This document shows, piece by piece, positions 2,725 through 11,250 of a stretch of 11,521 nt of DNA. Position 1 is the first letter of the stretch, and each line of letters starts with the position of its first letter. The notes beneath the pieces are model-generated. The model was not told where the DNA came from, made no database searches, and worked only from the letters and a program-made list of their open reading frames with translations. Origin of the DNA: Methanoregulaceae archaeon (GTDB lineage Archaea; Halobacteriota; Methanomicrobia; Methanomicrobiales; Methanospirillaceae); assembly GCA_013331215.1 (NCBI GenBank), contig DUGU01000081.1, positions 1-11,521 on the forward strand. The letters are read 5' to 3'. A program made the translations under genes and the position numbers.

Positions 2725-2750
2725 AAGGCAGGCGCGGAAATCAACAATTG

Positions 2751-3431
2751 ATGGATGGGAGTCAACGATCGCTGCATCGAATCCGTGATGCCAACCGCCG
2801 TCGCGCCGGCGATCCGGAGCAGATCGGAAAACAGGATCAGCTACCGCCGGAAAATGAAGATCCGGCGGACTTCCTCTCGCCGTACGGCACGCTCTTTCGG
2901 AAGTCGGCGCTCAAGCTGCTCGTCTTCCTCGGCAGGCAGTACACCCGGCAGTTCCACGTCCGCGACCTCGCCCGGTCGCTCGGCTACGACGTCTCGATCG
3001 TCAGTAAAAACCTGAAGGCGATCGAGGCCATGGGCCTCGCGACCCGCGAGGAGGTGGGGAACCTCGTCTTCTACCGGGGGAACATGGACAGCGTCCTCAT
3101 GCGGCAGATGAAGATCTGCTTTACGCTGCTGGAGCTCAACGACCTGGTCCGCACCATCGCGCCGATCGCGTCGAGCATCGTCCTCTACGGCAGCTGCGCC
3201 ACGGGCGAGGATACGGACGATAGCGACATCGACCTCTTCATCGAGACCACGGACCGGGCCGCGGCGGCGGAGAGCGTGGACGCCTTCGGCAGGACCGTCC
3301 GGAGACCGCTCTCGGCGATCGTCGCCACGCCCGCGGACCTCTACGCGTTGAAGACGAACGACCCGGCGCTGTATGCGAGCATCCGACAGGGGATCGTGCT
3401 GAAGGAGGCCGGCGATGTCTCACCGGTTTGA
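2751..3431 (+). CDS. winged-helix protein fused to a minimal nucleotidyltransferase (MNT), antitoxin-type
   Basis: A frame of about 226 aa whose ATG follows directly after an in-frame TTG; counted from that TTG (2748) the residues below apply. Residues 1-45 are a basic, hydrophilic extension. Residues 50-130 form a winged helix-turn-helix (FHVRDLARSLGYDVSIVSKN), as in DNA-binding regulators. Residues 140-200 hold the nucleotidyltransferase motif GSCATGEDTDDSDID (148-162), the GSx10DxD signature of pol-beta-like MNT proteins. The third acidic residue expected on the following strand is not obvious (RRPLSAIVATP, 185-195), so activity is uncertain. In MNT/HEPN pairs this partner neutralises the HEPN toxin, in some cases by AMP transfer. 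The fused DNA-binding domain suggests that it represses its own promoter. It overlaps the HEPN gene by 17 bases. Confidence 0.85.
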   Translation: MDGSQRSLHRIRDANRRRAGDPEQIGKQDQLPPENEDPADFLSPYGTLFRKSALKLLVFLGRQYTRQFHVRDLARSLGYDVSIVSKNLKAIEAMGLATREEVGNLVFYRGNMDSVLMRQMKICFTLLELNDLVRTIAPIASSIVLYGSCATGEDTDDSDIDLFIETTDRAAAAESVDAFGRTVRRPLSAIVATPADLYALKTNDPALYASIRQGIVLKEAGDVSPV

Positions 3432-3864
3432 CCGGGGCATCGAGTCCCGGGGGCTGCGCCGCTCGCCGGTCGATCCGGCGAGGGTGGACCGCGAGATCGC
3501 CGAGGCGCGGGCCGATCTCTCGGCCGCGAAACGGACGCTCGACCAGGCCGATTACAAGTGGGCGATCGTCAAGGCCTACTATGCGATCTTCCACGCCTGC
3601 CGTTCGCTCGTCTACAGCGCGGGATACAGCGAGAAGAGCCACGACTGCGTGATCGTCGCCGTTCAGGATCTCTTCGTGGCTCCGGGGACGCTGCCGGCGT
3701 TCGTCGCGACCGCGATGCGCGAGGCGAAGGCGGCGCGAGAGGCGGCGGACTACGGGTTGACCGACGACGACGGGACGGCCGGCGCGATCATCCGCGACGC
3801 GGAGGAGGTCTGCCGCATCGTGATAGAATATCTCGGCGATTCGGCGCCGGAGACCGCGGAGTAG
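3415..3864 (+). CDS. HEPN domain protein, probable toxin partner of the MNT protein
   Basis: This 149-aa helical protein shows the pattern of the HEPN family (PF05168-like): YKWAIVKAYYAIFHACRSL (47-65), GYSEKSH (70-76) and AREAADYGL (107-115). HEPN proteins paired with MNT proteins are usually ribonucleases that halt growth. The strict R-x4-6-H catalytic motif is not clearly present: R63 is followed by H76, 13 residues on. RNase activity is therefore a family inference only. The gene starts inside the MNT gene (17-base overlap), so translation is probably coupled and the two products are made together. A start further in is unlikely, since no other ATG precedes the conserved helices. Confidence 0.85.
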   Translation: MSHRFDRGIESRGLRRSPVDPARVDREIAEARADLSAAKRTLDQADYKWAIVKAYYAIFHACRSLVYSAGYSEKSHDCVIVAVQDLFVAPGTLPAFVATAMREAKAAREAADYGLTDDDGTAGAIIRDAEEVCRIVIEYLGDSAPETAE

Positions 3865-3895: not shown

Positions 3896-4236
3896 ACCGA
3901 TCCCGGCTGTGATCGACCCCGCGGCCTTCCGCAGTGCGACGGCGGGGATCGGGCACTGCGACATCTGCACCAGAGTGGACAGCCGGCGAGGCGTAACGGA
4001 GTTTCGGGATGATCGTCCAGTCTATGGCAGCCGCGCTCGCCTCCGCCCGGTTCAAGGAGATCGAGGACGAAGAGCCGCGCCAATTCCCGACGCGGCCGCG
4101 TTCACGGAGATCGCCGACGACGCGATCGCGAACACCCCGTTCGGCTGCATGGCCCACCTGTCGGGACCGGGAGCGAGGCGTCGCAGCGTCGCTCCCCAAT
4201 CCACATTCCACCGGCGCTCCTCTTCCCCTTCCCGGA
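3896..4236. other. largely gene-less stretch with a possible gene fragment
   Basis: Apart from the HicB-like fragment starting at 4009, I see no supported gene. The long plus-strand frame that crosses it (3558-4310) is a shadow of the HEPN gene in another frame. A second short fragment of reasonable composition, PIPDAAAFTEIADDAIANTP (about 4081-4140), sits in a different frame from the HicB-like one. Confidence 0.4.
4009..4080 (+). pseudogene. HicB-like antitoxin N-terminal fragment
   Basis: The ATG is preceded by CGGAG (3997-4001). The first 23 codons read MIVQSMAAALASARFKEIED followed by EEP, resembling the start of a subgroup of HicB/UPF0150-type antitoxins, which continue with a tyrosine-glycine-glutamate turn and a GVWATG strand. 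Here the frame instead goes straight into Arg/Pro/Ser-rich translation with no such strand. A truncated or internally deleted gene is the best reading. No hicA-like toxin is visible next to it. Recognition rests on memory of a short segment. Confidence 0.35.
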
Positions 4237-4244
4237 AATCATTT

Positions 4245-4258
4245 CGAAAGGTTTATCG
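4245..4258 (+). promoter_or_regulatory. BRE/TATA promoter of the first large surface-protein gene
   Basis: CGAAAG (4245-4250, BRE-like) precedes GTTTATCG (4251-4258, TATA-like). The same pair stands at 7466-7479, at the same distance (18 bases) from an identical 25-base block, which supports function. Transcription should begin inside that block, near 4278, leaving a leader of roughly 130 bases. Confidence 0.65.
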
Positions 4259-4268
4259 TATCAGGATC

Positions 4269-4406
4269 GTATCTGTGATAATCGCGCGTGGAGTGACAGA
4301 CCCTCTTTGATGGCCTCCGGGCCGGGCGCCATGCCAGTCCTCCGCGCGGGGCAAATTCACCGACGCATCATCGCCGCTCCGTAGCGGAGCGGCCGGAGGA
4401 AAAAGT
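4269..4406 (+). promoter_or_regulatory. conserved structured 5' leader, copy 1
   Basis: This leader is duplicated before the second large gene. It contains the following. (1) A 25-base block (4269-4293) identical to 7490-7514. (2) A hairpin, 4311-4315 with 4320-4324, closed by a U-G pair that is C-G in the other copy, with an unrelated loop. (3) CCTCCG at 4339-4344, complementary to the ribosome binding site CGGAGG at 4394-4399. (4) An 8-bp hairpin CCGCTCCGTAGCGGAGCGG (4374-4392) two bases before the ribosome binding site. A 17-codon frame (4331-4384) ends in the hairpin loop TAG, but it is not preserved in copy 2. The leader may control translation; no known riboswitch class is recognised. 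Confidence 0.55.
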
Positions 4407-7337
4407 ATGCTCCACATCGCACGCAATCGGGGGCGCAACCGCGCCCTCGCGCCGGCGGCAGCCCTGCTGCTGGCGCTCTGCCTGCTCGCCGTCGGCGTGC
4501 AGGCCGCACCGGATCCCGCAGATACGGCCGCGCTCGCTCTCGCCCCCTACCCGGGCAGCCACCCCGTGCCGGGACAGGTCTCGGCCCTGGACTTCGACGC
4601 CGGCGGCGAGGGCGTCGCGTACCACGACACCGAGCCCGCGAACCTCGGCAACGACAACTACCGCGCCGGCGAGGGTGTCGACATCGAGAACCAGGGCACG
4701 TTCCCGGACGTCGGCTGGATCCGCGACGGCGAATGGCTCGACTACACCGTCAACGCAACCGAGCCGCAGACCTTCGTCATCGATGTCTTGGCCGCGAACC
4801 CCGACCCGGTCACCAAGCGCGTCGCCATCCTGGCCGACGGCGTCCCCGCCGGCACGGTCGACCTCCGGCCGACCGGATCCTTCTCGGGCTTCAACGACGG
4901 TCAATCGACCCCCATCGCGCTCCCCGCGGGGGAGACCACGATCCGGCTCCAGTTCGACGGAGTCTCGCGGGTCAACCTCGCCAAGCTCGACTTCCACCTG
5001 CCGTGGGTCGAGCCGACGCCCGTCCCGACGCCCGCATCCGAGCTCCTCGTCGACACGCCCGGCCTCCACACCCTCGACCGCGACCTCTCGGCCGACGTGG
5101 TCGGCGTCCTCATCACCAGCTCCGACGTCGTCTTCGACGGCATGGGCCACACCATCGAGGGCATGACCGCGAACACGACGGGCGTCTATGCCGCTGGGCT
5201 CCAGACCCCGACCTCGTCCGGGATCATCGCGAACGTCACCGTCCGCAACCTCACCGTCCGAAACTGCGGCGGCGGGATCGGCATCGGCGGCGTCTCGGGC
5301 CTCGTGGTCGAGGACGTCGTCTCGGAGCGGAACATTGTCGGGCTCGGCATCGGCGCGTTCACCGGCACCGCCGACGACTACCTCGTCCGCGACTCCGTCT
5401 TCCGCGAGAACACCCGTACCGGTATCTCCCTCGGGTACGCAGCCCAGGGGATCGCGATCGAGCGGTGCTCGATCACCGGCAACGGCGAGGGGGTCGACGC
5501 CGACCTCTTCAGGTCGAGCGACCGCACCTCGAACCACATCGTCGACTCGACCATCTCCGACAACACGGAGAACGGCATCTCGCTCAAGGAGAGCGGGTTC
5601 CTGATCCGGAACTGTACCATCGGCGAGAACGGCGGCGACGGCGTCTACGTCGAGCACGGCGGCGCCGAGGTCATCGGCAACCGGATCGAGAACAACGCCG
5701 GCACCGGCGTGCAGTCCACCTCCCGCGGCGGGTCCGACATCAACGGCAACCGGATCACCGGCAACGGCCTGGGGGTCGCCGTCGGCGGCGACTGGTCGTC
5801 CTCGGTCAGGAACAACTACCTGAACAACACCGACAACGGCTTCTTCGGCGTCTCTGCGGCCGGGATGCTGAACTACGAGAAGACGGCCGGCCGGAACATC
5901 GTGGGCGGCCCGTACCTCGGCGGCAACTTCTGGGCCAGCCCGAACGGCACCGGGTTCTCCCAGACCCACCCCGACGCGGATGGCGACGGCATCTGCGACG
6001 AGCCCTTCGTCATCAACGAGGACGTCACCGACTTCCTCCCGCTCGCGCCGTGGAACGGCACGCCCGTTATCGCGCCGACGCCCTGCCGGGAGCACCCGGT
6101 CCCCGGCCGGATCGAGGCCGAGGACTACGACCTCGGCGGCGAGGGCGTCGCGTACCACGACACCACGCCGGGCAACACCGGCGGCGCGTACCGCCACGAC
6201 GACGTCGACATCGAGACGGCCGGAGGGATCACCGACGTCGGCTGGATCCGCGACGGCGAGTACCTCCTCTACACCGTGAACGTCACCCAGGCCGGCGTCT
6301 ACACCATGACGGCCCGCGTCGCGAGCCCGAACGACGGCCGGACCGCGACGATCTCGATCAACGCGGACCCGATGTACACTAACATAATCCGGGTCCCGAA
6401 CACCGGGTCGTTCGAGACGTTCGCGACGGCGACCGCGGATTACATCACCCTGCCAGCCGGGACCGTGACCCTGCGGCTGACCTTCCACGGCGACGGCCAG
6501 AACCTGGACTGGATCGAGTTCGTGCCCCACGACTTCGGCACGCCCAGGCCGACGCCGGCCGTGCCCTCGCCGTACACGGCGCTCGCGATCCCCGGCACGA
6601 TCCAGGCCGAGGGCTACGACCTCGGCGGCGAGAACGTCGCGTACCACGACACCACCCCCGGCAACGAGGGCGGCGCGTACCGCCACGACGACGTCGACAT
6701 CGAGACCGCCGGCGGCGTCACCAACGTCGGCTGGATCCGCGACGGCGAGTTCCTGCTCTACCACTCGAACGTCACCGAAACCGGGGCGTACACGCTGACC
6801 GCCCGCGTCGCGAGCCCGAACGGCGGGCGGACCATCGCCGTGCTGATGGACGAGATCCTGCTCACCACGATCGCGGTCCCGAACACAGGCTCGTTCTCGA
6901 CGTTCGCGACCGTCCAGGCGCCGGTCTCGGTCTGGGCGGGCCAACACGCGTTCAAGCTCGTCTTCCACGGCGACGGCCAGAACCTCGACTGGATCGCGTT
7001 CGAAAGGAGCGGCGTCGCGACACCGACTCCGACGCCCTCGGTGTCGACACCCACGCCGACGCCGGTGGCGGGCGGTGCCTCGTTCACGGCCGCGCCCCTG
7101 ACCGCCTCGCACGGCAGCGCGGTGAAGTTCACCCTGACCCCGGCGACCGGCAAGACCGTCGGCGCGGCCTGGTGGTCGTTCGACGCTCCGGCCCACCTGA
7201 ACACGTGGAACTCGCGGGCGGTCAACCCGACGTTCTTCTACCCGTCGGCCGGCACGTTCTCGCCGCTCGTGAAGATCACCTACACGGACGGCTCGAGCGA
7301 GACGGTCCAGCGGACGGCCTATGTCAGGGCGACCTGA
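4407..7337 (+). CDS. secreted beta-helix/CBM6 multidomain surface protein (976 aa)
   Basis: The ATG follows GGAGG (4395-4399) by seven bases. Domains in order: signal peptide 1-33 (basic start, then LLLALCLLAVGVQA); CBM6-like module 52-199, a divergent copy; right-handed parallel beta-helix about 212-497, NosD/pectate-lyase-like with repeated N-G-I/V turns; a NosD-type end with GGNFW and HPDADGDGICDEPF (505-534), possibly calcium-binding; CBM6-like modules 562-706 and 725-865, each with AEDYD or similar, GGEGVAYHD, VGWIRDGE and FHGDGQNLDWI motifs; a Thr-Pro linker 871-888; and a divergent PKD-like domain 889-976. CBM6 modules usually bind polysaccharide through a calcium-dependent beta-sandwich. 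No catalytic triad is seen in the helix, so binding or adhesion is likelier than cleavage. There is no C-terminal membrane anchor or PGF-CTERM motif. Several N-x-S/T sites could be glycosylated. Confidence 0.88.
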   Translation: MLHIARNRGRNRALAPAAALLLALCLLAVGVQAAPDPADTAALALAPYPGSHPVPGQVSALDFDAGGEGVAYHDTEPANLGNDNYRAGEGVDIENQGTFPDVGWIRDGEWLDYTVNATEPQTFVIDVLAANPDPVTKRVAILADGVPAGTVDLRPTGSFSGFNDGQSTPIALPAGETTIRLQFDGVSRVNLAKLDFHLPWVEPTPVPTPASELLVDTPGLHTLDRDLSADVVGVLITSSDVVFDGMGHTIEGMTANTTGVYAAGLQTPTSSGIIANVTVRNLTVRNCGGGIGIGGVSGLVVEDVVSERNIVGLGIGAFTGTADDYLVRDSVFRENTRTGISLGYAAQGIAIERCSITGNGEGVDADLFRSSDRTSNHIVDSTISDNTENGISLKESGFLIRNCTIGENGGDGVYVEHGGAEVIGNRIENNAGTGVQSTSRGGSDINGNRITGNGLGVAVGGDWSSSVRNNYLNNTDNGFFGVSAAGMLNYEKTAGRNIVGGPYLGGNFWASPNGTGFSQTHPDADGDGICDEPFVINEDVTDFLPLAPWNGTPVIAPTPCREHPVPGRIEAEDYDLGGEGVAYHDTTPGNTGGAYRHDDVDIETAGGITDVGWIRDGEYLLYTVNVTQAGVYTMTARVASPNDGRTATISINADPMYTNIIRVPNTGSFETFATATADYITLPAGTVTLRLTFHGDGQNLDWIEFVPHDFGTPRPTPAVPSPYTALAIPGTIQAEGYDLGGENVAYHDTTPGNEGGAYRHDDVDIETAGGVTNVGWIRDGEFLLYHSNVTETGAYTLTARVASPNGGRTIAVLMDEILLTTIAVPNTGSFSTFATVQAPVSVWAGQHAFKLVFHGDGQNLDWIAFERSGVATPTPTPSVSTPTPTPVAGGASFTAAPLTASHGSAVKFTLTPATGKTVGAAWWSFDAPAHLNTWNSRAVNPTFFYPSAGTFSPLVKITYTDGSSETVQRTAYVRAT
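6090..7001 (+). repeat. tandem CBM6-coding repeats in the first surface-protein gene
   Basis: Two modules, 6090-6524 and 6579-7001, repeat at both protein and DNA level, separated by a short Thr/Pro linker. A third, diverged copy lies at 4560-5003, before the beta-helix. Shared DNA islands code for GGEGVAYHD (from about 4605, 6135 and 6624) and for the VGWIRDGE and DGQNLDWI strands. Confidence 0.75.
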
Positions 7338-7465: not shown

Positions 7466-7479
7466 CGGAAGATTTATAG
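7466..7479 (+). promoter_or_regulatory. BRE/TATA promoter of the second large surface-protein gene
   Basis: CGGAAG (7466-7471) then ATTTATAG (7472-7479) is the counterpart of 4245-4258, with a closer match to the TATA consensus. Transcription should begin near 7500. Its presence shows that the second gene has its own promoter and is not only read through from the first. Confidence 0.7.
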
Positions 7480-7489
7480 GATCGCGAAC

Positions 7490-7629
7490 GTATCTGTGAT
7501 AATCGCGCGTGGAGCGACAGACCCCCTCTCACGGCCAATGGGCCGGGCGCCATGCCAATCCCTCCGCGCGGGATGAAATTCACCGACGCACCATCACCGC
7601 TCCGTAGCGGAGCGGCCGGAGGAAGAAGC
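7490..7629 (+). promoter_or_regulatory. conserved structured 5' leader, copy 2
   Basis: The counterpart of 4269-4406 carries the identical 25-base block (7490-7514); hairpin CGGCC-AATG-GGCCG (7532-7545); CCTCCG (7561-7566), able to pair with CGGAGG (7617-7622); and the identical hairpin CCGCTCCGTAGCGGAGCGG (7597-7615). The spacing of CCTCCG to the ribosome binding site is 56 bases here and 55 in copy 1. A two-base net length difference shifts the frames between the copies, so conservation is of nucleic acid rather than of an encoded peptide. Confidence 0.55.
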
Positions 7630-10600
7630 ATGCTCCACACCGCAGACTATCGGGGGTGCAGAAGCCCCCTGGCGCCGGCGGCGTTCCTGCTGCTGGCGCT
7701 CTGCCTGCTCGCCGTCGGCGTCCAGGCCGAACCGCCCGCGGGCGCCGTCCCGATCACGAACAGCACCGTGATCACCGCGCCGGGCACGTATTACCTCGCG
7801 CAGTCGCTCTCGGACCTCGACAGCCCGGTCGCGATCTCGATACGGGCCCCGGACGTCGCGTTCGACGGCCAGGACCGTCTCCTCGACGGCCGGGACCTCG
7901 CCGGCTCGATCGGGATCGAGGTCCGGCCTCCCGACGGCGGCCCGGCCCTGACGAACGTCAGCGTGGCCAACGTCCGGCTCGCGGACTGGGCGACCGGCCT
8001 CGACGCCTCGACGGCCGGGCTCCGGCTCGTGAACGTCAGCGCCGAGAGCGGCGGGACCGGGTTCCTGCTCATGGGCCCGGGCGCCGTGACGCTCGAGGGC
8101 TGCACCGCCGCGGAGAACGCCGCGAACGGGATCCGCGCCGACGGCATCACGGGCGACCTCGCGCTCGCCCTCTCCGACGTCCTTGTCCTGACGAGCGGGG
8201 AGACCGGGATCGACGTCCGCCTCGCCGCAGTCACCATGACCGACTGCAACGTCCTGGAGAACGGCCAGGCCTCGGCGGAGAGCAGCGGGTTCAGGATCTA
8301 CAAGGGGTCCGCGACCGTCCGGGACAGCCTCTTCAGGTTGAACGGCGGGTCCGGGATCTTCTTCGACACCTCGACTTCCGGCACGGTCACGGGCTCCCAT
8401 TGCCTGGTGAACGGGTACGCCGGCATCCGCGACGCGGAGACCGCCGGCGAGGGCGGCTCCCTGACCATCTACGACAACTACCTCCAGAACGACCGGAACG
8501 TCGCGCTCGGCGGCCGGGCGATCACCTGGTCCGTCCCGAAGACGGCCGGGCCGAACATCGTCGGCGGGCCGTCCATCGGTGGCAACTACTGGGCGAACCG
8601 GAATGGCACCGGCTTCTCCGAGACGCACCCCGACGCCGACGGCGACGGGTTCTGCGACGAGGCGTACGTCATCGCCGACGGGTCCACGGACGCCCTGCCG
8701 CTCGTCCTCCCGAAGGACACGCCCAGGCCGACCTCAGCGCCGTACGGGCCGCACGCGGTCACGGACCGGATCCAGGCCGAGGACTACGACGTCGGCGGCG
8801 AGAACGTCGCGTTCCACGACACCACGCCCGGCAACACCGGCGGTGCGTACCGGCATGACGACGTCGACATCGAGACCGGAAACGGCATCACCGACGTCGG
8901 CTGGATCCGCACTGGCGAGTACCTCCTCTACACCGTGAACGTCGCCGAGACCGGGGACTACGCGGTGGCGGCCCGCGTCGCCACCCCGAACCCCGGGTGC
9001 CGGATCCGCTTCTCCGTCGACGGCCAGGAGGGCACGGTGCTCTCGCTCCCGAAGACGGGCTCGTTCGAGACGTACACGACCGCCACCCGCGTCTACTACA
9101 CCGGGAGCCCTCACTATCCCCTCGACCCGTCGGTGACCGCGACCCCGACGCCGCAGGGCACGGGCTATCCCCCGTCCGAGCACCCGCTCCGGCTCACGGC
9201 CGGGACGCACGTCCTGAAACTCGAGTTCCATGGCGACGGCCAGAACCTCGACTGGTTCGAGCTCAGCCCGTACGTCGAGCCCACGACGCCGCCGGGCCCC
9301 GGGCAGTACAGACCGCTCGCGATCCCCGGGACGATCCAGGCCGAGGACTACAACACCGGCGGCGAGGGCGTCGCGTACCACGACACCACGCCCGGTAACG
9401 AGGGCGGCGCGTACCGCCACGACGGCGTCGACATCGAGACCGCCGGCGGCGTCACCAACGTCGGCTGGGTCCGGAACGGCGAATGGCTCGCGTACACCGC
9501 GAACGTCACGACGGCCGGCACGTACACGATGACCGTCCGGGTCGCGAGCCCCAACAGCGGCCGAGACATGGCGCTCATCGTCGACCAATCCTTCCTCACG
9601 TCGATCGAGGTCCCGAACACCGGGTCGTTCGCGACGTTCCGGACCGTCGAGGTCCCCCTGACGCTCGCGGCGGGACAGCACACCCTGAAGTTGACCTTTG
9701 CGGGCGACGGCCAGAACATCGACTGGATCGCGTTCGCGCCGGTCGGCATCCCGACACCGACGCCGACGTCGACGGTGACGTCCGCGCTCCCCGGCACGAT
9801 CCAGGCCGAGGACTACGACCTCGGCGGCGAGGGCGTCGCGTACCACGATACGACACCGGGCAACACCGGCGGCGCCTACCGCACCGACGACGTCGACGTC
9901 GCGGCAATCGCCGGCGGTCACGCCGTCGTCGGGATCGAGGACGGCGAGTACCTGACCTACACCATCGGCGGCGTCTCGGCGACGCCCGAGCTTCCGGCCC
10001 TCGTCCTCTATCTCGGAAGCGACCGCGACGGTGGGAGCGTCCAGCTCGAGGTCAACGGCAGGGTCGCCGGGAACGTGAGCGTCCCGAACACGGGAAGCCC
10101 GACCGCGTTCACGGCGGTGCAGACGCAGGTCGTCGCCGCCGCGGGCACGCTCCGGCTCCGCTTCCACGGGGCCGGCATGGGCATGGACCGGATCGAGTCG
10201 CCCCGCTTCGTCTCCTACGCGGACGCGTACGCCGAGCCCAACTTCACGGCCGACCGGACGAACGGCACGGCGCCGCTCACGGTCCGGTTCACGGACGCGT
10301 CCTCGGCATGGACCTACGAGTGGCACTGGGACTTCGGGGACGGCGCGACCTCGACCGAGCGGAACCCGGTCCACACGTTCCAGCATCCCGGTGTCTACGG
10401 CGTCTCCCTCGCGATCATGGAGTCCGACCGCTGGTCGGGCGGCACGATCCTGCACATCTGGAACAGCCCATATTACACGAAGGTCGTGCAGGTGACTGTC
10501 GAGGGGACGGGACCGGCGTTAGGGCTCGCCATCCCCGGGACGATCCAGGCCGAGGACTACGACGCCGGCGGCGAGGGCGTGGCCTACCACGACACGACCG

Positions 10601-11250
10601 CCGGCAATAGCGGCGGCGCGTACCGCACCGACGCAGTGGACATCGAGACTGTCGGCGGCATCACCAACGTCGGCTGGGTCCGCACCGGCGAGTACCTCGT
10701 CTACACCGCGGACGTCCGGGACGCGGGTGCCTACACTCTCTCGGCCCGCGTTGCGAGCCCGAACACCGGCCGGACGATCTCCGTCACTGTCGACGGCGCG
10801 GCCGCCGCGACGATCGCGGTCCCGAGGACCGGGTCGTTCGAGGCCTTCCGGACCGTCGACGTCCCCGTGACGCTCGCGGCCGGTACCCACACCCTCAAGC
10901 TCGCGTTCGCCGGCGACGGCCAGAACCTGGACTGGATCGCCTTCGCGAAGGGCGGCGAGGTCGAGACGCCGACGCCGGAGGCGGGCGGCGCGAACTTCAC
11001 GGCCGCGCCGCTCTCCGCGCCGAGGGGATCGGCCGTGCGGTTCACGCTCTCTCCCGCGGCCGGCAAAACGGTCGCGTCCGCCTGGTGGTCGTTCGACGCG
11101 CCGGCGCACCTGGACACATGGAACTCGCGGGCGACGAACCCGACGTTCTTCTACCCGGCGGCCGGCAGTTTCAGCCCGCTCGTGAAGATCGCGTACACGG
11201 ACGGCTCGACCGAGACCATGCAGCGGACGAACTACGTCCGGGCGACCTGA
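7630..11250 (+). CDS. secreted beta-helix/CBM6/PKD multidomain surface protein (1206 aa)
   Basis: The start is set at 7630, where GGAGG (7618-7622) precedes the ATG by seven bases and the signal peptide lines up with the paralogue. The in-frame ATG at 7552 lies in the conserved leader and its extension is not preserved in copy 1. Domains: signal peptide 1-33; parallel beta-helix about 40-305; NosD-type end with GGNYW and HPDADGDGFCDEAY (318-346); CBM6-like modules 375-546, 562-702, 718-856 and 966-1106; a classical PKD domain 864-957 (EWHWDFGDGATSTERNPVHTF); a Thr-Pro linker at 1112-1116; and a divergent PKD-like C-terminus 1119-1206 shared with the upstream gene. Module one has a Thr/Pro-rich insertion (about 490-516); module three has lost key aromatic residues. 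A role in polysaccharide binding at the cell surface is inferred. No C-terminal anchor is seen. Confidence 0.88.
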   Translation: MLHTADYRGCRSPLAPAAFLLLALCLLAVGVQAEPPAGAVPITNSTVITAPGTYYLAQSLSDLDSPVAISIRAPDVAFDGQDRLLDGRDLAGSIGIEVRPPDGGPALTNVSVANVRLADWATGLDASTAGLRLVNVSAESGGTGFLLMGPGAVTLEGCTAAENAANGIRADGITGDLALALSDVLVLTSGETGIDVRLAAVTMTDCNVLENGQASAESSGFRIYKGSATVRDSLFRLNGGSGIFFDTSTSGTVTGSHCLVNGYAGIRDAETAGEGGSLTIYDNYLQNDRNVALGGRAITWSVPKTAGPNIVGGPSIGGNYWANRNGTGFSETHPDADGDGFCDEAYVIADGSTDALPLVLPKDTPRPTSAPYGPHAVTDRIQAEDYDVGGENVAFHDTTPGNTGGAYRHDDVDIETGNGITDVGWIRTGEYLLYTVNVAETGDYAVAARVATPNPGCRIRFSVDGQEGTVLSLPKTGSFETYTTATRVYYTGSPHYPLDPSVTATPTPQGTGYPPSEHPLRLTAGTHVLKLEFHGDGQNLDWFELSPYVEPTTPPGPGQYRPLAIPGTIQAEDYNTGGEGVAYHDTTPGNEGGAYRHDGVDIETAGGVTNVGWVRNGEWLAYTANVTTAGTYTMTVRVASPNSGRDMALIVDQSFLTSIEVPNTGSFATFRTVEVPLTLAAGQHTLKLTFAGDGQNIDWIAFAPVGIPTPTPTSTVTSALPGTIQAEDYDLGGEGVAYHDTTPGNTGGAYRTDDVDVAAIAGGHAVVGIEDGEYLTYTIGGVSATPELPALVLYLGSDRDGGSVQLEVNGRVAGNVSVPNTGSPTAFTAVQTQVVAAAGTLRLRFHGAGMGMDRIESPRFVSYADAYAEPNFTADRTNGTAPLTVRFTDASSAWTYEWHWDFGDGATSTERNPVHTFQHPGVYGVSLAIMESDRWSGGTILHIWNSPYYTKVVQVTVEGTGPALGLAIPGTIQAEDYDAGGEGVAYHDTTAGNSGGAYRTDAVDIETVGGITNVGWVRTGEYLVYTADVRDAGAYTLSARVASPNTGRTISVTVDGAAAATIAVPRTGSFEAFRTVDVPVTLAAGTHTLKLAFAGDGQNLDWIAFAKGGEVETPTPEAGGANFTAAPLSAPRGSAVRFTLSPAAGKTVASAWWSFDAPAHLDTWNSRATNPTFFYPAAGSFSPLVKIAYTDGSTETMQRTNYVRAT
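9313..10197 (+). repeat. tandem CBM6-coding repeats in the second surface-protein gene
   Basis: Modules at 9313-9735 and 9781-10197 are in tandem. Related modules lie at 8752-9267 and, beyond the PKD domain, at 10525-10947. The module at 9313 shares 42 consecutive identical bases (9427-9468) with the third module of the upstream gene (6693-6734), more than protein-level constraint alone would require. Confidence 0.75.

Follow-up and report, generated by a model that had tools for sequence, protein, structure and literature searches.

Structured, lineage-specific leaders in archaeal ribosomal-protein mRNAs, including an S15 leader of Methanomicrobia, are described in part of the study of Eckert and Weinberg (2020, PMC7247131). 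Moreover, portions of a report on the cold response of Methanolobus psychrophilus (PMC5378194) describe long 5′ UTRs with predicted stem-loops that mask the SD. The locus studied here carries long 5′ leaders in front of genes for probably secreted proteins. We consider it on balance probable that these leaders belong to a structured, cis-acting 5′ UTR RNA family that governs how a group of secreted-protein genes is translated in a single methanogen lineage.

The two leaders of the window

The window (the whole stretch of 11,521 nucleotides that was analysed) contains two leaders, A at 4269-4406 and B at 7490-7629, with the ATG of the following gene immediately 3′ at 4407 and 7630 (Table 1). 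They can be aligned over their full length, promoter and signal-peptide codons included. A DNA search with copy A as query returned copy B with E = 1.1e-60, and window repeats at 4235-4340 and 4353-4511 accompany an A/B homology that runs from the promoter to near the end of the signal peptide. The original prediction had described a near-identical leader duplicated before two paralogous genes, and its coordinates and distances were correct, including the spacing from CCTCCG to CGGAGG, which is 55 bases in A (4339 to 4394) and 56 bases in B (7561 to 7617). Reading frames do differ between the copies, as it had stated in arguing against a conserved peptide, and no upstream ORF is conserved. An upstream-ORF attenuator was rejected because at most 12 of the 24 leaders have any given frame open; by a count made by eye, 14 of the 24 have an AUG at the loop of P4, in mixed frames.

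Table 1. Coordinates of promoter, leader and gene features in the window
Feature	Position	Strand	Basis or remark
Archaeal promoter, gene A	4245..4256	+	BRE-like CGAAAGG 4245-4251, TATA-like TTTAT 4252-4256
Leader A, predicted 5′ UTR	4277..4406	+	R1 match of 145.7 bits over 4277-4409 including ATG; leader in the R1 building set
P1 5′ strand, leader A	4281..4293	+	Partner 4340-4352
Conserved junction strand TGACAGACCCTCTTTGA, leader A	4294..4310	+	Possible weak P2, 4296-4300 with 4304-4308
P3 hairpin, leader A, loop TCCG	4311..4324	+	Pairing in genus alignment and tree-based test
P4 hairpin, leader A	4325..4335	+	98.4% of cells paired, almost invariant; tree test not significant
P1 3′ strand, leader A	4340..4352	+	Overlapped by CCTCCG 4339-4344, complementary to SD
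P5 hairpin, leader A, beside SD	4374..4392	+	97.3% of cells paired in genus leaders
SD-like CGGAGG, gene A	4394..4399	+	Sequence
Gene A	4407..7337	+	Signal-peptide-like N-terminus (by eye), CBM6 and NosD/beta-helix domains
TATA-like TTTAT, gene B	7473..7477	+	Sequence and genus alignment
Leader B, predicted 5′ UTR	7498..7629	+	R1 match of 143.1 bits over 7498-7632 including ATG; leader in the R1 building set
P1 5′ strand, leader B	7502..7514	+	Partner 7562-7574
P3 hairpin, leader B, loop AATG	7532..7545	+	A/B alignment and genus pairing
P4 hairpin, leader B	7546..7556	+	Pairing in genus alignment
P1 3′ strand, leader B	7562..7574	+	Overlapped by CCTCCG 7561-7566
P5 hairpin, leader B	7597..7615	+	Sequence and genus pairing
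SD-like CGGAGG, gene B	7617..7622	+	Sequence
Gene B	7630..11250	+	Signal-peptide-like N-terminus (by eye), beta-helix/NosD, CBM6 and PKD domains

The leader lies on the transcript side, between a TATA-like box and the SD. The BRE-like and TATA-like elements are named by the general pattern of archaeal promoters. The TTTAT stands 21-25 bases upstream of the leader in most genus copies, with a per-position identity of 15-20 of 21 genus leaders, and the promoter bases G, A and A at -31, -29 and -28 are kept in 20, 20 and 21 of these 21. From this distance and general archaeal promoter geometry, transcription is expected to start at the first bases of the leader. Sigma-70 promoter or terminator-like sites were absent from 4150-4450 in a test unsuited to an archaeon.

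Each leader is arranged as P1 5′ strand, conserved strand, P3, P4, P1 3′ strand, a linker of variable length, P5, SD and ATG, with P1, P3, P4 and the junction strand forming a conserved core and P5 standing next to the SD. The element CTCCGTAGCGGAG is found at 4377 in leader A and at 7600 in leader B, and leader A has an additional CCTCCG at 4314, within P3. By eye, 7 of 21 genus leaders match the consensus of the conserved strand, GUGACAGACCCUCUUU, without a difference, and 12 of the 16 columns from 17 to 32 are at least 90% identical among these 21. In the distant leaders L066, L073 and L085 the helix sequences have changed and the motifs GGAG-n-GAC, GG-n-G-n-CA-n-n-CC and UCCU are retained. 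The outer columns of P1 are paired in L073 and L085 and mostly unpaired in genus leaders. The potential for a P2 helix, seen by eye as a perfect GACAGA/UCUGUC hairpin in L066 and a CCGA/UCGG hairpin in L085, was not significant on the tree (302/2000 and 276/2000).

Elsewhere in the window, ARAGORN finds no tRNA or tmRNA, and this identity was rejected. The region 175-870 encodes a protein in which two CDGSH iron-sulfur stretches occur together with a divergent 4Fe-4S domain. A nucleotidyltransferase-domain protein, which has a weak match to a winged-helix domain (MarR_2), and a HEPN-domain protein overlap at 2748-3864; the two are presumably a toxin-antitoxin pair of the HEPN/MNT type.

Distribution of the family and the genes behind it

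DNA searches found five leader copies in the window's own genome (G000, a fragmented assembly of 348 contigs, 66.5% complete) and copies in all 7 genomes of its genus. A covariance model built from 21 leaders (R1) was run against 108 genomes of the family with a cut-off of E 0.1. It detected 24 copies in the genus, spread over 7 of 7 genomes, and 3 more in G079, which is the single genome of a different genus. The same 8 hosts, with 27 model-detected copies in total, were returned by R1 from 232 order genomes, and again by a class search of 232 genomes at E up to 0.01; in a phylum draw 3 of 392 genomes were positive, all of them hosts already known, and absence elsewhere means absence at the sensitivity of searches of more than 40 genomes, where stricter filters lose weak matches. 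One of the hosts has its genome in a single contig (2,922,917 bases).

The copies in G079 scored 52.5, 52.2 and 29.6 bits. The 29.6-bit copy is a decayed leader at about L148 2304-2392 (G079:C1:1223303-1223391), from which the core middle is lost and in which P1-like arms and P5 are retained; it stands before a broken signal-peptide gene, an ORF of 34 codons. In the same contig, two leader-headed genes stand in tandem with their leaders 3.3 kb apart (L147, 5136 and 8458), resembling the pair in the window.

At the margins of the family, the R1 score of the strongly diverged L085, from the window's own genome, was 20.5 bits (E 0.024); R2, a model built with L085 included, gave it 49.9 bits. L101 of G004 is weak (19.4 bits, E 0.036) and was accepted on its context, the same type of signal peptide being encoded downstream. 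When the 108 family genomes were searched at the DNA level, a single additional short match of 29 bases (E 4.4e-4) appeared, in G078, and it had no significant R1 score (9.2 bits, E 0.24). With R2 at E up to 0.5, 13 of the 232 order genomes were matched, namely the 8 hosts and 5 others with 6 matches, and there was one extra match in G003; these 6 additional loci and the G003 stretch were dropped, since by eye they had no leader-like position before a start codon. A leader-pattern search of named genomes matched 15 stretches, 14 of them in MAGs labelled Methanoregulaceae, Methanomicrobiales, Euryarchaeota or Methanospirillum; a match in Neptunicoccus (L055, 15.1 bits) was judged to be chance. 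Going by these labels, the lineage is presumably Methanoregulaceae. Two viral pattern scans yielded 25 and 13 stretches, with one weak R2 match each (E 0.97 and 0.54).

Rfam gave no match in the window at gathering score and none in 4200-4450 at E up to 1; for the loci L066, L073, L079 and L085 at E up to 5, it gave only two weak matches, both outside the leaders. Among the papers listed in literature searches there was no description of this leader. Judged by sequence comparison, the family is lineage-specific, archaeal and structured, and has no Rfam match.

The leader is linked to genes with signal-peptide-like N-termini, which were called by eye. A search for the signal peptide in the genus gave 28 matches, and of the 20 with E up to 1.2e-4, 19 lie behind model-detected leaders and the twentieth behind the diverged L101; the 8 weaker matches (E 1.7e-4 to 1.14) had no R1 match. 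L026 (G002:C44), one of these 19 leaders, ends at an ATG that opens 53 codons only and is not in the signal-peptide frame. In G079, 3 of 3 signal-peptide matches lie behind a leader. Thus 19 of 24 genus leaders precede one type of signal peptide and 5 are without such a match. Other hydrophobic N-termini follow L012, L017 and L018, L014 is cut by a contig end, and a HEAT-repeat protein lacking the usual signal peptide follows L024 (778-1574, G004:C185). Mature domains found by Pfam in 10 proteins were NosD/beta-helix, CBM6, NHL propellers, TIG with weak matrixin, PD40 and HEAT, and 3 of the 10 had no match. The leader is thus tied to secreted proteins, yet it is more than an attachment of a single protein family. 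In L108 (G002:C35, minus strand, upstream of 100895), a gene that resembles a paralogue of the L005/L085 secreted protein has a 5′ region of another kind, with what by eye resembles a perfect 9-bp basal helix (GAAUGUGUU/AACACAUUC) and with no R1 or R2 match.

Evidence for selected RNA structure

Structure tests used 24 leaders, drawn from 28 copies (the 27 detected by the model and L101) by leaving out L014 (truncated at a contig end), L018 (leader identical to L012), L079 (deleted) and L101 (too diverged). In the tree-based test, substitutions were placed randomly on a FastTree tree with the root state fixed at the consensus, keeping the number per column and the observed spectrum. Double changes exceeded expectation in P1 (8 vs 2.25, reached in 43/2000 runs), P3 (7 vs 2.0, 47/2000) and P5 (9 vs 1.13, 14/2000), and the corresponding values for cells paired were 72/2000, 76/2000 and 5/2000. 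For P4 the test was not significant (cells paired 151/2000, double changes 653/2000), as this helix is too constant for the test to decide. With P1, P3, P4 and P5 taken jointly, 1/2000 runs reached the observed double changes and 0/2000 the observed number of paired cells. These helix p values are flattering, because the alignment that was tested is also the one from which the helices had been proposed. With random root states the cells-paired measure was unstable, and P1 had p of 0.001 and 0.330 with two seeds.

Simpler tests, in which relatedness was ignored, pointed in the same direction. Shuffling of the 21 genus leaders gave 15 double-change cells vs 5.0 (0/500), with the number of pair types not raised (226/500), and shuffling of the 24 leaders with P2 included in the structure gave 19 vs 8.3 (0/500). 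Own arms paired better than swapped arms in P1 (6/5000), P3 (73/5000) and P5 (0/5000), and within the genus alone the signal was confined to P5 (0/5000; P1 1185/5000, P3 635/5000). One pair of P5 is U-A in 10, C-G in 8 and U-G in 3 of 21 leaders. A blind all-pairs scan for covariation yielded nothing significant: the top pair overall had E = 1.4, and the top one among the proposed pairs, 110-118 in P5, had E = 16. The scan probably had little power, the leaders being too similar. Folding energies were barely below those of shuffled sequences, with mean z of -0.63 for the core and -0.68 for the leader plus 30 bases.

Among 19 genus leaders, mean pairwise divergence was 0.177 in the core, 0.281 in P3, 0.128 in P5, 0.490 in the linker and 0.435 between SD and AUG, vs 0.254 at fourfold-degenerate sites of the codons that follow. 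Taken whole, core and P5 are less diverged than these sites, and P3 alone is not.

Compensatory changes in P1, P3 and P5, together with the low divergence of core and P5, support the earlier proposal that RNA structure is selected in the leader. The hairpin on which that proposal relied is less telling: its loops (TCCG and AATG) and its T-G vs C-G closing pair are present, but the closing pair is poor evidence, being C-G in 10, U-G in 4, U-A in 3 and unpaired in 4 of the 21 genus leaders, a set to which A and B belong. The account was also incomplete, since P1 (4281-4293 with 4340-4352) and the covariation in P5 were missing from it. Of the covariance-model check in relatives that it had called for, the search found the family and the tree gave modest support to P1, P3 and P5, while the blind scan lacked significance.

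Masking of the SD and the role of the leader

The complementarity of CCUCCG in the P1 3′ strand to the SD is real, and masking of the SD by the leader is energetically plausible by folding models. In partition-function folding at 37 degrees with 30 coding bases, masking exceeded a probability of 0.5 in 10 of 24 leaders and P1 did so in 1 of 24; the counts were 8 and 9 of 24 for the leader alone, and 10 and 4 of 24 with 60 bases. The mean unpaired probability of the SD was 0.139 vs 0.289 in leaders shuffled upstream of a fixed SD, and it was lower than shuffled in 21 of 24 leaders (Wilcoxon p 2e-5, for leaders that are not independent). Because folding favours a buried SD, the leaders appear poised between P1 and SD masking. 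However, the helix of the P1 3′ strand with the SD showed 0 double changes in 21 leaders (tree 1443/2000) and no energy advantage of own over swapped arms, which 2031/5000 permutations reach, and it is weak in L085, L004, L024 and L026. Hence, of the original suggestion that the SD is sequestered, complementarity and predicted burial were borne out, and compensatory changes and an energy advantage were absent. The further suggestion that the left arm of P5 pairs with the SD likewise found no support in comparison (own vs swapped 4071/5000, tree 1013/2000). The exclusive alternative folds are present energetically, without compensatory changes. In random-root tree runs, the SD-masking helices gave p of at most 0.005 for cells paired, an unstable measure, and 1.0 and about 0.49 for double changes. 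Pairing of the P1 5′ strand with the start codon, present in some folds, was not significant (440/5000).

The leader is very probably structured and cis-acting, and its effect is probably on translation and not on mRNA stability alone; translational control as its role is likely but unproven. In the mechanism that we propose, the core would bind a small molecule, ion or protein. Formation of P1 would leave the SD free, and opening of P1 would let its 3′ strand (CCUCCG) pair with the SD and block the ribosome. The SD must remain complementary to CCUCC of the 16S rRNA, and for that reason alone it would keep a potential to pair with any CCUCC. Because of this constraint and the lack of comparative support for the masking helix, we regard the P1/SD switch as a doubtful mechanism. 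That the family forms a new class of archaeal translational riboswitch, in which a P1-closed junction senses a small molecule and frees or masks the SD, seems unlikely to us. A structured, conserved, aptamer-like core as expected of a riboswitch is found in the 5′ UTR, with modest helix support and a negative blind scan. If the riboswitch reading were true, the junction would set the output of a whole battery of secreted, sugar-binding and adhesion-like proteins. The leader family would make coordinated RNA-level control of an archaeal secretome testable.

Simpler roles can account for part of these data. It is possible, and in our judgement rather unlikely, that the leader merely protects or boosts the mRNA, with P1 capping the 5′ end, P5 insulating the SD, and neither sensing nor switching; P5 is the best-supported helix and is predicted with probability above 0.5 in 20-21 of 24 leaders, and the SD-masking alternatives have no compensatory support. 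However, the junction strand and the P4 region are conserved beyond the needs of helices, as would befit a binding site, and the SD is more buried than in shuffled leaders. An RNA thermometer, with the SD paired in the cold and opened by warmth or the reverse, would agree with competing folds of similar energy and with the SD-masking stem-loops predicted for long 5′ UTRs in the cold response of Methanolobus psychrophilus, as part of that report describes them (PMC5378194). We consider it highly improbable, since the ensembles predicted for 25 and 37 degrees hardly differ and the junction sequence appears more conserved than a thermometer would require.

Other readings dispense with a function of the RNA. 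Conservation could reflect recent duplication, if a cassette of promoter, leader and signal peptide was copied between paralogues, and the extent of the A/B homology and the joint travel of leaders and signal peptides fit such copying. It is nevertheless very unlikely as the explanation: core and P5 (P3 does not) diverge less than fourfold sites of the same cassette, compensatory changes appear in the tree-based test, the leader also precedes the HEAT-repeat protein (L024) and other N-termini (L012, L017), and the motif is kept in a distant genus despite changed helices. We give hardly any credence to a role at the DNA level, with the element acting, for instance, as a palindromic operator shortly after the point where transcription starts. 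P5 and P1 are inverted repeats and their position by the promoter is conserved, but one U-G pair of P1, retained in 18 of 21 leaders, breaks the dyad symmetry of DNA and argues for RNA, because U-G is allowed in RNA and not in a DNA palindrome; moreover, orientation and place directly before SD and ATG are fixed in the aligned leaders.

Translational control by a structured leader, the reading that we prefer, can be compared with known systems. The general architecture of translational riboswitches is shared in that a P1-closed, conserved junction-type core lies in the 5′ UTR, a P1 strand is complementary to the SD, and several genes of one functional class are preceded in each genome. Unlike described riboswitch classes, the scanned leaders have no Rfam match and no known ligand. 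A ribosomal-protein leader identity was rejected, as 0 of 12 Pfam-scanned leader genes match a ribosomal protein, 3 of the 12 having no match at all. As far as they are described in the relevant part of PMC7247131, archaeal ribosomal-protein leaders are likewise lineage-specific and structured elements of archaeal mRNAs; they precede ribosomal-protein operons, whereas the present leader precedes secreted-protein genes. The long 5′ UTRs of Methanolobus psychrophilus resemble it by description, in the portion of PMC5378194 concerned, as long methanogen leaders with predicted SD masking. Unlike those 5′ UTRs, as presented there, one conserved family here recurs before different genes.
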